Of a stretch of 64,000 nucleotides of DNA, positions 2,894 through 40,933 are shown one piece after another. The notes beneath the pieces were generated by a model. It made no database searches. It saw only the letters and a program-made list of their open reading frames with translations, and was not told the origin of the DNA. The position numbers were made by a program, and so were the translations under genes. Position 1 is the stretch's first letter; each line of letters begins with the position of its first letter. Source of the stretch: Sorex araneus (Eukaryota; Chordata; Mammalia; Eulipotyphla; Soricidae); contig NC_073304.1 of the NCBI RefSeq assembly GCF_027595985.1, forward strand, positions 219,240,000 through 219,303,999, given 5' to 3'.

Positions 2894-3117
2894 TGTTCTT
2901 TCATTCCATCTGGAAAACAGATACACGGAAGTTCAATTATCAGCTCAAGGAATCAGGTAAGGTGGCCACGCTCCTAAGCGGGCAGCTCACATGGGTTCTT
3001 CGAACCCTCACTGTCCAGTCACAACAGGTACAGATGGAGAAGACAAATGACTTCTACCGATAAACCCAAACTCTTCCGTTTTAGTACAATAAATACTACC
3101 ACAGAAACTAAGACCAA

Positions 3118-4070
3118 CAGAGACTAGCACACATCCAAAAGAACAAAAGCAACCGCTGTTGGAGAGGATGTGGGGAGAAAGGGACCCTTCTACACTGCTG
3201 GTGGGAATGCCGGCTAGTTCAGCCCTTTTGGAAAACAGTATGGACGATTCTCAAAAAACTAGAGGTTGAGTTCCCATTTGACCCAGCAATACCACTGCTG
3301 GGAATATATCCCAGAAAAGCCAAAAAGTATAGTCGAAGTGACATATGCACTTATATGTTCACCGCAGCACTGTTTACAATAGCCAGAATCTGGAAAAAAC
3401 CCGAGTGCCCTAGAACAGATGACTGGTTGAAGAAACTGTGGTACATCTATACAATGGAATACTATGCAGCTGTTAGAAAAAATGAGGTCATGACATTTGC
3501 ATATAAGTGGATCAACATGGAAAGTATCATGCTAAGTGAAATGAGTCAGAAAGAGAGAGACAGACATAGAAAGATTGCACTCATCTGTGGAATATAGAAT
3601 AATAGACTATAAGACTAACGCCCAAGAATAGTAGAAATAAGTACCAGGAGAATATTTCCATGGCTTGGAGGCTGGTCTCTCATTCTGGGTAACTCAGGGA
3701 AGGGACCACCAAGTAAAATGTGGTTGGAGGACATGTGGGGGAAGGGTGAGGCGGGTGGAATACAGACTAGAGACTGAACACAATGGCCACTCAACACCTC
3801 TATTGCAAACCACAACACCTAATCAGAGAGAGAGAACAAAAGGGAATTCCCTGCCACAGTGGCAGGGTGGGGTGGGGGGAGACGGGTCTGGGGAGGGGGG
3901 GAGGGATGTTGGGTTTACGGGTGGTGGAGAATGGGCACTGGTGAAGGGATGGGTTATTGAACTTTGTATGGGGGAAGCATGAGCACAAAGATGTATGGAT
4001 CTGTAACTGTACCCTCACGATGACTCTCTAATTAAAAATAAACTAATAAAAAAAAAATAAAAAAAAAAAA
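3118..4070 (+). mobile_element. 5'-truncated LINE-1 insertion
   Basis: The L1 3' end with the C-terminal ORF2 region (about 3355-3597, including the MEYYAAVRKNEVMTF segment), a G-rich 3'UTR tract (3880-3930) and an A-rich tail (4034-4070). It is flanked by the perfect 15-bp duplication AGAAACTAAGACCAA at 3103-3117 and 4071-4085, the signature of target-primed reverse transcription. The copy is about 950 bp of a 6-kb element and is not functional. Confidence 0.93.
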
Positions 4071-12230: not shown

Positions 12231-12610
12231 GTGAGTGTTGTGAAGGTGGTGGAGGCAGAAGGGAGGGGGCGCATGGGTCCCAGCAGGCCAGGGCTGATAG
12301 TGGCTCCTGGTGGCTATTGCACCCCCAAAGAATAAAACCTGCTTAATAGCCCCCACCGGACAACACTGAACAGGGAAGCCAGTACTAGAGGCAGAGAGGC
12401 ACAGCTCCAAGTTAATTGTTGGTGTTTTGTATTAGCAGAAAAGTCATGTCAGCTCCCCCAAATCATTCAATTCGGCCAGAATCTGAGCCTCTGACCTTCT
12501 CCCCCAACCCCCCCCCAGCCCCCACATTCCTTCCTTTTTCTTCATTCGGGCCACCTAGTCCCCTTGCATTTCCTGCCTTCCAGCCAATGTCTCTCCTGGC
12601 TTTTTCCCAG

Positions 12611-12852
12611 GCTCTGAGATGATTGAGACGCAGGAGGACATCTACGTGGGCTCCATCGAGACGGACCGGGGGGTGCGGGAGCAGGTGCGCTTCTATGACA
12701 CGCGGGGGCTCCGTGATGGGGCCGAGCTGCCCCGACACTGCTTCTCCTGCACCGATGGCTTTGTCCTGGTCTACAGCACGGACAGCCGGGAGTCCTTCCA
12801 GCGCGTGGAGATGCTCAAGAAGGAGATTGACAAGTCCAAGGACAAGAAGGAG
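12611..12852 (+). CDS. NKIRAS2: NKIRAS2 coding exon 3 (switch regions)
   Basis: Acceptor TTTTTCCCAG at 12601-12610; exon of 242 bases, residues 32-112. It carries the kappaB-Ras G3 motif D61-T-R-G-L65, in which leucine stands at the Ras Gln61 position, and a short switch I without the usual Ras effector loop. The end is set by continuity with exon 4 (KDKKEV): GAG/GTCTGG at 12852/12853, a donor that departs from consensus at +3 to +5. Reading on past it gives an open frame of about 39 extra codons that does not match the family, so that is intron. Compared with remembered human protein the exon shows only conservative changes, such as Phe82 and Met99. Confidence 0.95.
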
Positions 12853-13090
12853 GTCTGGGTTGGGGCAGGGACGGTGGTGACCCGGGCTGGGGGCCTGCCC
12901 TGTGCCATTCCTCATGGACTTTCCAGGACATGGGTCAGGAACTGGAACAGGATGGGGGCCCCTGGATAGAAGGTGCCTGCACCCCTAGAGGGGACCATGT
13001 GTTGAGGCAACTGAGCCAGAAACTGCTTCAGATTAGGAGGTCCCTGACCGAAGGCTGCAAGTCCCAAGTAGTGTTTCCTCATTTTCTCTT

Positions 13091-13252
13091 TGGTTTTTTT
13101 TTTTTTTGAGTTTTTTGGCAGGGGCACCTAATGGTGCAGGTGTGGGGTTATTCTTGGCTGTACCATGGGAACCATGTGGTGCCAGGGATCAAACACAGGT
13201 TTCCCACATGCAAAACCTGTGCTCTAGACCTTGAGTCATGTTCCTTGGACCC
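13091..13252 (-). mobile_element. SOR-like SINE, antisense, old
   Basis: T-run, GGGTTATTCTTGGCTGTACC and a GCCAGGGATCAAACAC core in NKIRAS2 intron 3. Confidence 0.65.
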
Positions 13253-13262
13253 AAGTGCCCCC

Positions 13263-13425
13263 CTTTGTTTTCTTTTGTTCTAATTTTGGGTCACACCTGG
13301 TGATGCTCAGGGGTTACTCCTGGCTCTGCACTCAGAGGGACCAGATGGAATGTGAGGGATTGAATCCCGGTCAGCCACGTGTGCAAGGCTAGTACCCTAC
13401 CTGCCGTATTATTGTTCCGGCCCTC
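13263..13425 (-). mobile_element. SOR SINE, antisense
   Basis: TTTTGGGTCACACCTGGTGA through TTATTGTTCCGGCCC; internal shortening in the core. Confidence 0.88.
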
Positions 13426-13532
13426 AAGTACTCTTTAAACTGGAGTACTGGAATCGCTTCTGTACTGCTTGTTCAGCTAGAAACTGCCAGTGGGCAGATG
13501 GAGGGTCAGCCGGGGGACCAGAATTCATTTTT

Positions 13533-13695
13533 TTTTGAGGGGTCACACCCGGTGATGCACAGGGGTTACTCCTGGCTCTGCACTCAGGAATTACCCCTGG
13601 CAGTGCTCAGGGGACCATATGGGATGCTGGAATTAGAACCCGGGTCGGCCGCGTGCAAGGCAAACGCCCTATCCGCTCTGCTATTGCTCCAGCCC
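13533..13695 (-). mobile_element. SOR SINE, antisense
   Basis: Full length; target duplication CCAGAATTCATTTTT at 13518-13532 and 13696-13710. Confidence 0.95.
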
Positions 13696-13721
13696 CCAGA
13701 ATTCATTTTTGTTCTTGATTT

Positions 13722-13845
13722 TGGGCTCATCCTTGGGGACTACTCTCAGTTTGGAGGTTATTCCTGGTGCTTAGGGGACTGTGTGGTGCCAGGAGTTGAA
13801 CCCCGGGACCTCACACATGCAAGACACACGTAATGCCCCTGAGCC
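13722..13845 (-). mobile_element. SOR-like SINE, antisense, old
   Basis: GGTTATTCCTGGTGCTTAGG core and GAACCCCGGGACCTCACACA head. Diverged. Confidence 0.6.
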
Positions 13846-14048
13846 AATGTGGGAGCCAGAATTTGTAGAGGAAGGAGGGGCCCTGCAGCCATTTCCCACA
13901 CCCGCCCCTTTCTGCCCCTTTCTCTGTCTCGTGTCATGTGACTTGGGATGGCCTCAGCCACTGAGACGCCCTTTCTGGGCCCGTCGGTGGTCACCAGCCC
14001 CGAGGCGGGCGCACTCACAGGCCTCGCTGGCCCTCTCTTTTTCCCCAG

Positions 14049-14288
14049 GTCACCATCGTGGTCCTCGGCAACAAGTGTGACCTGCAGGAGCAGCGCCGCG
14101 TAGACCCGGACGTGGCACAGCACTGGGCCAAGTCGGAGAAGGTGAAACTCTGGGAAGTGTCGGTGGCCGACCGCCGCTCCCTGCTGGAGCCCTTCATCTA
14201 CCTGGCCAGCAAGATGACCCAGCCGCAGAGCAAGTCCGCCTTCCCCCTCAGCCGCAAGAACAAGGGCAGCGGCTCCTTGGACGGCTGA
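14049..14288 (+). CDS. NKIRAS2: NKIRAS2 coding exon 4 (C-terminal half, stop)
   Basis: Acceptor TTTTTCCCCAG ending at 14048. The exon encodes residues 113-191 and the TGA at 14286-14288. It opens with [11 protein letters not shown]; the guanine-specificity motif is N120-K-C-D123. The C-terminus ends GSGSLDG and has no CAAX box, so the protein is not prenylated, which is normal for this family. The sum of the three coding exons is 576 bases including the stop, in perfect phase. Confidence 0.96.
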
Positions 14289-17376: not shown

Positions 17377-17487
17377 CTTGAGGATACTCACAGCCAGCGC
17401 CGCCTGCTTCTGCAGCTTGCTGTGCTGGCCGCAGGCCTTGGGCGGCTTCCCGGCCAGGCGGTCTTTGTGTCTTCTGCTGCTCAGGTG
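17377..17487 (-). CDS. ZNF385C: ZNF385C exon encoding the end of finger 4
   Basis: Acceptor CCCTCCGACAG before 17487, donor CTCAAG/GTACCT at 17377/17376; 111 bases, residues 382-418, phase 0 at both ends. It starts with [14 protein letters not shown], which supplies the two zinc-binding histidines (H382, H388) of finger 4. The intron to the last exon contains two adjacent antisense SOR SINEs. Confidence 0.94.
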
Positions 17488-20340: not shown

Positions 20341-20506
20341 CTTTGCTCTGTGGCTCTTCAGAGGCCGCGCTAGTGGGAACTGGAGTTGGAGAGCCCGGAA
20401 CCCCCTCCCGGGCCAGGTCTGGTGGTTTCTGCTTGTTCTTGGCAGCTTCTGCGGCTTTGAGCTTGCGAGCATGTTTGTGGCCTTTATAATGCGCTTCTGC
20501 CTGGTT
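20341..20506 (-). CDS. ZNF385C: ZNF385C exon with the end of finger 2
   Basis: Acceptor CCCCCTTACAG before 20506, donor CAAAG/GTGAGT at 20341/20340; 166 bases, residues 170-224 plus one base. It opens with [18 protein letters not shown], which gives the histidines H175 and H181 of finger 2. The rest is a low-complexity Pro/Ser/Lys linker. Confidence 0.94.
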
Positions 20507-23266: not shown

Positions 23267-23377
23267 CGCTGAGTTGAACCTCAGGTGACAGATGTTACAG
23301 GAGATGAAGAGCTTCTTCTTCAGAGGGGAGGGGACCCCAAATGTGTGGCTGATGACAGCTTTCTGGACCGGGTCCAT
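23267..23377 (-). CDS. ZNF385C: ZNF385C exon with MDPVQKAV and start of finger 2
   Basis: Acceptor CCGCTTCACAG before 23377, donor TCAGCG/GTGAGA at 23267/23266; 111 bases, residues 133-169, phase 0. It starts with [18 protein letters not shown], the most conserved block of the ZNF385 family, and ends inside finger 2 after C159-N-I-C162-HLRFNSA. The internal Met133 could start a shorter isoform. Confidence 0.95.
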
Positions 23378-25853: not shown

Positions 25854-26002
25854 CGTGCTGAAGTTGGGGAAGAGACTGAGTGGGGCGTTGCCATTGAGGT
25901 GGAAGGCGAGCAAGTGCTTGAAGTCCAGCGGGGGCTGCAGAGGACTGGCGGGCAGGGGCAGGGAGGCCAGCAGGGGGCTGGGGGTGCTGGAGGCTGGGCC
26001 TG
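25854..26002 (-). CDS. ZNF385C: ZNF385C exon 2 of the coding region
   Basis: Acceptor CCTCCTGCAG before 26002, donor AGCACG/GTAGGT at 25854/25853; 149 bases, residues 83-132. It encodes a Pro/Leu-rich segment with [17 protein letters not shown] and ends [10 protein letters not shown], which corresponds to the family segment just before MDPVQKAV. No finger. Phase 1 in, phase 0 out. Confidence 0.92.
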
Positions 26003-27692: not shown

Positions 27693-28059
27693 AAGAACCC
27701 CGTTCTCCTTCCCTCAGCCCTCAGCTCCCAAGACATGGTCCTTTACCCTGCAGCCAAGACACCACCCCCTGTCCCCAGACTTTTCTAGAATCAGAGCCTG
27801 AGTCAACTCAAGAGGGTGAGCAGAGCCTCATCTAATTCTGGGAAGACTAGGACCAATTATTAGGGTACCCCAGGGCCAAGCATCTCTGCCCATCGCCCGG
27901 GTCCTAGAGAACCCCTGGGACCATGGAGGGACTCGGCACAGGGGAAGGGAGCTCTGGAAGAGGCTGGGAAGGTCCAGTTATCAAGTCTGTGCAGGTGAAG
28001 CTGGGTCAGGGGGGTGAGCCCTGGGCATTAAGGACCCAGCCCCCCTGTCCCGCTGCACC

Positions 28060-28990
28060 CAAGGAGCTGGTCCTGAGGAGGGCAGCAAGTCCAGGAGCCC
28101 ACCCCCCACAATGCACAGCCACTCTCCAAGACCCCCACTGCCAACGCTAAGTCAAACTCACGCAGTGGGGAGCCGATAACTGTGATCTTCCCTGCGGGGC
28201 CGCCCCGATGTGTGTCCCCCAGCACAGCCCCAGGAGGCGCCCGTGGGGTGGAGAGAGCCGAGGAGAAGCCGGAGAAGAGCTGGTGCAGCTTGAAGGGTGC
28301 ACACACCAGCCTGACGCCCGTGCCGTGAGCACGACTCTGCCAGGTGCTGTGCCAGCTCAGGACCAGGTCCTGGGCCCCCGGGGCATGCCCTCAGGGCGCT
28401 CAGAGTCAGCTCATGGGTGAAGGGATGAGCGGAGCGAGCTGGCCACTGCCAGGTGCAGCTCTGCCCAGCCCCCGGATGTCCTCGCTCCCGAGCCCCGTCC
28501 AGGCCTCTGTGGCCACCCACCTGCACGTCCCTCCCTCTCCTGGGGCCGCAGTGATCGCTGCGCTCCATGTGCAGCAGCGCCTGGCACAGGCGGAATCTCT
28601 GCAGCTCTGGCAGGGCGGAGCCGAGGGCCTTGGGCACGTACTCCTTGGCCCCGCGATACACAGTGCTCAGCATGGCCAAAGTGGCCACGTCCACCTCCGC
28701 TGTGAGGCCCACGGAGGTGGGGCTGGCCGCAGTGAGCAGTGAGCGCCAGGCATTGGGCCCCCGACATCACGTGGTGCGGGAAGTTGTCAGTGCCACAGTG
28801 AAGGCGTCCTGGGCTTTGCCATGCGCACCGGGCGCCAGTCCTGGGGGCACCTGAGACAGAGCAGGGGCTTCCGCTCACAGCTGGAGGGCAGCCAGGGGAA
28901 CTCCCCCTTCCAGTGCTCACTGGAATAGTACTTGCTCTTCTGGCCAGAGTCGGAGGTTTCCCCAGCTGGCTTTTTCCTGGGGGGCACCAA
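28060..28990 (-). pseudogene. C17orf113-like gene remnant
   Basis: On the minus strand an open frame starts MVPPRKKPAGETSDSGQKSK at 28990 and continues through a W..FPWL..C..CLRC segment resembling a TTF/BED-type zinc finger. After about 45 residues the frame breaks. GTDNFPHHVMSGAQ-like sequence follows in another frame at about 28790, then VDVATLAMLSTVYRGAKEYV and ELQRFRLCQALLHMERSDH in a third frame (about 28690-28560). At 28306-28070 comes FKLHQLFSGF and GKITVIGSPLREFDLALAV, which I recognise as the C-terminal region. From memory these match C17orf113, a protein of about 670 residues related to ZNF862 and hAT transposases and encoded next to ZNF385C in human. Roughly the middle two thirds is missing. 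Several frameshifts and the internal loss show that it cannot make the family protein. Whether it is the decayed orthologue or a retrocopy cannot be settled here; I see no A-tail or target duplication. Confidence 0.72.
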
Positions 28991-29231
28991 GCCAGCTCCT
29001 CTAGGGGCTCACCCAAAAGCTCATGTCCCCCACCTGCCATCCAGCCTGCCATTCCCACCAGAACCACCTCCCCGGACAAGGGAAGTTGGGCCTCCCGCCA
29101 GGCTAGAGGGGACGGTTGGGCTGAGGCCGGAAAGTTTACTCCTGCTTTGCTGGCAGGAGACTGAGATGAAACACAGAAGGAGAAGGTGTCAAGGGCCCCG
29201 CTGGGGTGGCCGGGACGAAATGGGGCAGGGC

Positions 29232-38673: not shown

Positions 38674-40933
38674 GCAGGCGCCGACAGGCTCATCAGCAAA
38701 GCCCCACACGCACGGGCATGCACAGGGCAAACAGCCCCAGGCGGGCTCCCGCACAGGCGCGCCCAGGGACAGGAAGTGGCCACATAATGACCCCCCAGTG
38801 CCCCTTTACCCAGAACTGCGTACGCCCCCCCAGAACCAAATGGCTTTGACAGACACAAATGCTCAAGTCACTGAACCCTGAGTCTTTCTCTCCAGTCACA
38901 GGGCGGAGGAGCGGGATGCACAGCCTCCGTGCCAGTGTCCCCCACGGCTGACACCCAGAGGACACCCTGACTGGCCGCAGAGGACGCGGGGACTGGGGGT
39001 TCACCCCCCGCCTTCCCCAGACCACCCCAAGCCACATCTCGCTCACGTTCCAAAGTCCTGCTCGGCCCCCCAATTCTTCAGGGGAGTAAGTAGCAGCCCC
39101 TGCCCTGGCACTAATGCAGCCTTCCCCTGAAGCGTTCAGGCACCCCTGGGTGTGCGCCCTGAGCCAGGTGACAAGCCAGGAGAAAGCTGCTGAGGCCAGG
39201 GAAGGGGCAGCAGGGTGGTGATCCCCACCTCAATTTCTGCCATCCCCCTTCCTGCTCCCTCTTCAGCCTGGAGCGCCCCCCCTCCCCGCAACTCTTCCAT
39301 CCTGCCCCAAATCACAGAGCGCCTCACTTCCTCAGCATGGACCCCCGGTGCCCAGCCACCACCTCTGGGGGCCTGGGAGAAGCTACCACAAACCCAGGGT
39401 CTCTGGACAGACAACTGATGGGGAGAAGGGGAGGGGAAGGGAGGGGGGGACAAAAGCAAGAAAAGGGGGGGAGTTTCGGGGGTCTCCAGCACTCACCCAA
39501 GAGCATTCTCTGTCTTTGGAGGCTCCCCTGAGCGCTGAGTGTGGAGAGTGAGGCCAAGGAAGTGCAGCCTGAGTGACAGAAGGAAGGGGTGAGGGAGTGC
39601 AGGACGGGGGAGGGTTGGAGGAGGAGAGGGGGAGCGGCTGGCTCAGGGCTTCTCTGCCAGGAAGGGGCCTACCATGCCCCCTTCCCCCCAGCCCCCACCC
39701 AGGCAGACAGCACAGGGCACGCCTCCCTCACCCACCAGAAAGACAAGGTGTAAAGGAGCATGGGGGGCTGTATCGGGGTGTCCATCTCTCACCCTGCAAT
39801 CCCTGCCTGGGGCCTTTTGTACTGAAAGAGGATCTGCTCCTTCGGTTGGGGGGCCAGCCTCGGGCAAGGAGGCGCCCCAGAGCCCCTTCTCTGATTGCCA
39901 GAACAGTCCTGCTGTTTTCTGGCCAGTCCCCGTCTCACTAATCAATCTGGGCACCCTTAGAGCACCCTCCTTTTGCGAAGGGGGAAACAGGCTCCGAGAG
40001 GGGATTCCCCAAGTCAGGTTACCTGGGTGGTGCAGGAGGGCGGGGTGAGACCGCCTGAGCCCCTCCCCCATTCCGGTTTGTTCCCTCTCCCCCTCTTCTT
40101 CCTGAAGTCTCTGCCCCCCTCTCCCCTCTGTGCACCTGGTGACCCGAAGGGGGATGGGAAGGGGGAGAGGAGTAAGGCGCGCGCCCGCTCAGGATCCAGT
40201 CTCACATTCCAACCCCGTCCTGCGCTGCCCCCCCTGAGCCCCCCCAACATCCTGTCTCCAGCAGACAATAACCTGTAATCTCGGGAGCAGCCAGAACCCC
40301 GAGAGATGAGCCGGGGAGGGGTTGGCAGCAGTTGGGCCTGAAAACAGGTTTGATAGGAAGAGGCTGAGGAGGGGGGAAGAGGAAGGAAACCCAAGCCCCA
40401 AGCTAATTAACCCACCCAGACATAGACTGAAGCTTTGTCTTCCGCTGACCCCCCTCGTGCTCCCCACAGTGGCCCCTGGGAGGGGATGGCTGCTGGTTAC
40501 CGAAGGTCAGGGTCGCCCCTGGGGGGGCGAGGGGCGAGGGCTTCTCCCCTCTGTCCTCGGCAGCAGGGGGCACTGGTCAGGCCTTGGGGGGCACTTCTTG
40601 GAAGTGTCAGGAAGGTCGGGGTGCTGAGCGGGGTGGCAGCCCAGGGAGGCATTGGAGCTAGGGGAGCACCTGGAGTGCTTAGGGGTCTCCTGGTGGGACT
40701 GAAAGGGGCCCCTCTTGGGGCGGGGGGCGGGGCGGCTGGGGCACCAGCACTCATCAAGCCAGTGGCTCAGGCGTGACCTGCACAAGGTCTTTGATCTCCA
40801 GGCCTGGAGACAAGGGACTGATCAGGGACACAGCTGAGCCCAGGAACAGCCTCTCCCTGCCCCTTTGACCCCCATGCCCCAGAGGAACTGGGGCCTCTAG
40901 TGTCACCCCAGGCGTCCTTGTCTTACAAGCCAG

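Follow-up and report, generated by a model that had tools for sequence, protein, structure and literature searches.

The minus strand of the window, a stretch of 64,000 nucleotides of Sorex araneus DNA, carries the remnant of a C17orf113 gene which is very probably a unitary pseudogene, i.e. the C17orf113 orthologue decayed in place. Unitary pseudogenes are single-copy genes that decayed in place and have no working copy elsewhere; like those known in mammals, the remnant is single-copy, has decayed where it stands and has no working counterpart found in the assembly. We favour this reading because the matches to C17orf113 are ordered, the alignment score (417) stands against scores of 42–52 for controls, the reading frame is damaged, the flanks are conserved and no other copy was found.

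The query in the comparisons with C17orf113 was a provisional sequence of the human protein (665 aa), in which single-letter errors are possible. This sequence scored 43.9 bits with the Pfam family PF25431 (zf-C17orf113), the cut-off of which is 29.5, and could be aligned with a ZNF862-like open frame of the same genome at 22% identity over 569 aa, so we consider the query to be broadly sound. Further, the frame changes described below are a property of the DNA of the window, and letter errors in the query would therefore leave the main result unchanged.

We ran tblastn of the query against the window both without composition adjustment and with default settings. As controls we used 50 shuffled versions of the query together with its reversed sequence (n = 51), the best matches of which spanned 24.3–37.0 bits. 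Without adjustment, C17orf113 gave four collinear matches on the minus strand, in three frames: residues 1–50 (frame -1, 65.9 bits), residues 67–135 (28794-28585, frame -2, 40% identity, 34.7 bits), residues 112–182 (frame -3, 72.0 bits) and residues 582–664 (28312-28118, frame -1, 40% identity, 44.3 bits), with the remaining positions, identities and E-values given in Table 1. The next-best match in the window had an E-value of 0.20 without adjustment and of 1.7 under default settings. The defaults shortened the C-terminal match to 28207-28118 (30 aa, 63% identity, 35.8 bits, E 2.5e-4). They also cut back the second match, to 28797-28690 (31.2 bits). Since the second match, and the C-terminal match under defaults, fall inside the control range when taken alone, they weigh by their order and place. 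In line with these results, the description given in the sequence-only reading, in which three out-of-frame blocks on the minus strand keep the N-terminal zinc-finger-like and helical parts of a C17orf113/ZNF862-type protein and a fourth keeps its C-terminal end, was borne out, and its coordinates, 28060-28990, fit the remnant.

A frameshift-aware alignment of the query with positions 27900-29200 was performed at frameshift penalties of -14, -20, -26 and -32, with stops also penalised. C17orf113 scored 417, compared to 49 for the reversed protein and 45, 52 and 42 for three shuffled copies aligned to the same DNA, which, as far as a provisional reference allows, supports the C17orf113-like identity proposed earlier. 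Its path starts with residue 1 at 28990 and finishes with residue 664 at 28118, and 142 of the 280 aligned residues are identical. It includes an additional weak stretch, residues 183–249, to which tblastn gave no match and which was absent from the earlier list of blocks. By tblastn, block 3 overlaps block 2 in a different frame; the alignment sets the shift between them at 28713.

The remnant is collinear with human C17orf113 from residue 1 to the C-terminus and its neighbouring genes stand in the order printed for man and cattle, but its reading frame is disabled. The expected start codon ATG reads TTG in the DNA, 4 to 8 frameshifts are present by most settings, and residues 250–580 of 665 (about 1 kb, roughly half of the length) are absent from the alignment whichever of the four penalties is applied. 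This agrees with the earlier claims that the gene is decayed and that its middle is gone; no significant piece of residues 250–580 was detected elsewhere in the window or in the assembly in searches with the query. The frameshift count was 8 at a penalty of -14, 4 at -20 and -26 (at 28840, 28796, 28713 and 28349) and 2 at -32, and we give the number as 4 to 8 because it depends on the penalty and two of the eight cancel in block 4. Of the shifts at 28840 and 28796, which flank residues ~51–65, only 28840 persists at -32. The weak stretch has at most three frameshifts, and the one at 28349 is the sole one to persist at all four penalties. Block 4 is in a single frame by tblastn and frameshift-free in the alignment save for the two cancelling shifts at -14. 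A stop codon is missing where this block should end, and the open frame 28028-28390 extends to 28028. No in-frame stop was found on the alignment path, though the method penalises stops. In block 2, the final His of the zinc-finger motif, AHRQ in the query, is replaced by Gln (AQCL).

Table 1. Positions in the window of the parts of the C17orf113 remnant and of ZNF385C stretches.
Feature	Position	Strand	Evidence
Block 1, residues 1–50	28841..28990	-	tblastn, 58% over 50 aa; alignment; start place 28988-28990 = TTG
Residues ~51–65, flanked by frameshifts	28797..28840	-	alignment at -14, -20 and -26
Block 2, residues ~66–106, end of zinc-finger-like part	28690..28796	-	tblastn (weak alone); alignment
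Block 3, residues 112–182	28518..28730	-	tblastn, 56%, E 2e-15; top match in assembly
Weak stretch, residues 183–249	28315..28517	-	frameshift-aware alignment only
Block 4, C-terminal residues 581–664	28118..28314	-	tblastn, E 6e-7; alignment
Proposed ZNF385C exon 1 (ATGCTCTTGG, then GTGAGT donor)	39497..39506	-	fits expected start M-L/I/V-L-G
ZNF385C exon 2, coding part	25854..26000	-	peptide match; name presumed
ZNF385C exon 3	23267-23377	-	peptide match; name presumed
ZNF385C exon 4	20342-20500	-	peptide match; name presumed
ZNF385C zinc-finger exon stretch	17392-17475	-	peptide match; name presumed

Poor sequence alone could produce frameshifts, as would be seen if an assembly error lay within a living gene. 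Against this, the start is lost, about 1 kb is absent and identity is ~58% in the best blocks, besides the frameshifts, and the four adjoining ZNF385C stretches examined beside the remnant have open frames. We therefore give an assembly error almost no credence.

Pfam scans of the four single frames of the remnant, and of a read-through of residues 1 to ~237 with X at the shifts, did not reach PF25431 (0 families in each case), in contrast with the human query protein. As a zinc finger below the cut-off is what a decayed copy is expected to show, we class the remnant as a pseudogene rather than as a family member with a working finger; because these scans gave nothing, family membership rests on the pairwise comparison with the provisional C17orf113 sequence. 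Judged from its sequence, the remnant makes no C17orf113 protein today and is most likely without function now.

Human C17orf113 is an intact gene on chromosome 17, where it is presumed to neighbour ZNF385C on the same strand. Here, 2.1 kb separate the remnant from ZNF385C exon 2, upstream of which it stands on the same (minus) strand, confirming the earlier placement inside or next to this gene. Four of the five ZNF385C peptides sought were located in the window. Two places above 26000 fit the expected start, and the one at 39497..39506, the sole one with a donor, is tentatively proposed as a ten-base exon 1. As the remnant stands between this proposed exon and exon 2, it is most likely situated in intron 1. 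Within 12559-14285 the plus strand encodes NKIRAS2, and near 8.6 kb the first exon of DNAJC7 is found on the opposite, minus strand; the names of these two genes and of ZNF385C are presumed. Within the same window, a 161-aa open frame at 3112-3594 (+) presumably resembles the end of LINE-1 ORF2. A RIG-I C-terminal domain, taken as DHX58, was found at C3:219313985-219315277, ~10 kb past the window end. Stops were reported inside two of the genome's five RIG-I C-terminal domain matches (C1 41.56 Mb and C12 196.12 Mb) and may be explained by reading across introns.

The flank order is hence DNAJC7, NKIRAS2, ZNF385C, DHX58, with NKIRAS2 and DNAJC7 on one side of the remnant and DHX58 on the other. 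The same order is printed for man in a passage of PMC4320828 and for cattle in a passage of PMC12075139, neither of which names C17orf113. To the extent of these passages, the neighbour order around the remnant matches man and cattle, the place of C17orf113 in man being itself presumed.

The assembly (2.4 Gb, 65 contigs) was searched for further copies, with scores given to the candidates that passed a loose first look. At the DNA level, 28020-29000 matched itself alone. The query protein gave four matches (all nine candidates scored). Two of them lie in the remnant, with E-values of 2.5e-12 and 8e-10; the other two, with E-values of 0.002 and 0.09, lie in distant paralogues. An intact C17orf113 was not found in the 2.4 Gb by protein, DNA or PF25431 profile search; such a gene should outscore the remnant, and as none did, we conclude that there is no working copy found within the 65 contigs and among the candidates passed on. 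This was one of the checks that the sequence-only reading had called for. It also bears on another explanation, namely that the remnant is a dead duplicate, made locally or by retro-copying, of a C17orf113 gene that had its proper place elsewhere and is unassembled or was lost separately. The blocks show no intron within residues 1–182 by tblastn and alignment, which might suit a retro-copy; however, no further copy was found in the 2.4 Gb searched, and position and strand fit the presumed human neighbour. A dead duplicate is thus unlikely, and decay of the orthologue in place is preferred.

The PF25431 profile found two loci in the assembly, on C1 and C6, but not the remnant (all 13 candidates scored). 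The first, at C1 ~122.99 Mb (L001 1342-2631 +), is a 429-aa open frame with PF25431 at 41.9 bits and represents a distant paralogue. The second, at C6 ~146.32 Mb (L002 1267-3177 +), is a 740-aa open frame with PF25431 at 35.8 bits, which we take to be ZNF862-like. The latter resembles C17orf113 in that it has a PF25431 finger and is distantly similar over the length of the protein, but it differs from the remnant in being open and on another contig. When both frames (the 429 aa of the first and, from the second, the 637 aa that fall within L002) were searched against the window, four matches with E up to 1 were obtained, none better than E 0.19, and none lay in 28-29 kb.

A remnant of another gene or transposon of the superfamily, either ZNF862-like or a free hAT element, could resemble C17orf113 by virtue of the homology between that protein and the ZNF862-like frame. 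Yet neither paralogue frame matched at the remnant, compared to an identity of 56–58% with C17orf113 in the two best blocks, and the DNA search gave a single copy, unlike what a transposon would leave. A different family, the possibility raised along with the original identification, is accordingly very improbable. On the provisional reference, the remnant has collinear similarity along C17orf113 that is better than its similarity to the paralogues, as befits an orthologue.

The ancestral product was probably a BED-like finger protein derived from a hAT transposase, as suggested by its family. Table 1 of PMC3257199 classes ZNF862 as hAT, and the homology of C17orf113 to a ZNF862-like protein would suggest a hAT origin. 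The query C17orf113 itself showed no hAT domain in Pfam at E up to 0.1, where only PF25431 was found. In the proposed course of events, a working C17orf113 would have stood at ZNF385C, most likely within intron 1 and on the same strand. Selection would then have relaxed, and the start codon, the frame, the zinc-finger His and ~1 kb of the middle would have been lost, the middle presumably by a single deletion.

To estimate the age of the loss, we used three clean blocks, in which 88 of 151 residues are identical (58%); the C-terminal part entered as its 30-aa core (63%) and not as the 83-aa match (40%). This identity is biased upward, because good matching was the ground on which the blocks were selected. 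It corresponds to 0.08–0.24 neutral substitutions per site if a working orthologue would have an identity of 0.70–0.95. Under assumed indel-to-substitution ratios of 0.06–0.14, eight shifts in 873 bases give 0.09–0.20, and for blocks 1–3 alone, with three shifts in 473 bases, the result is 0.06–0.14. The overall rough estimate is therefore 0.06–0.24 neutral substitutions per site since the loss. Neutral rates are of the order of a few 1e-9 substitutions per site per year, and at such rates the loss would date back, roughly, tens of millions of years. The view that the loss was fairly recent may hold but is not supported, as the ~58% identity of the best blocks and the 4 to 8 frameshifts point to long decay, within an estimate that is laden with assumptions. 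A figure of 30 million years is printed for shrews in the abstract of PMC11544316, and our estimate is of similar order. An early death of C17orf113, in the stem lineage of shrews or within Eulipotyphla, which would leave it absent from all living shrews, is conceivable, but we hold it to be somewhat doubtful.

The name C17orf113 appeared in no paper of the library searched, and no report of its loss was found among the titles and abstract openings listed from the shrew and gene-loss literature; the string C17orf has no occurrence in the passages of PMC11544316 examined. Taken alone, this loss is one among many, an unremarkable case of a unitary pseudogene, from a gene that has been studied little. 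If the early loss on the shrew stem is true, shrews would be natural knockouts of a so far unstudied protein derived from hAT. In a living mammal, such a knockout would demonstrate that C17orf113 is dispensable there, and would be a starting point for asking which trait, if any, accompanied its loss.
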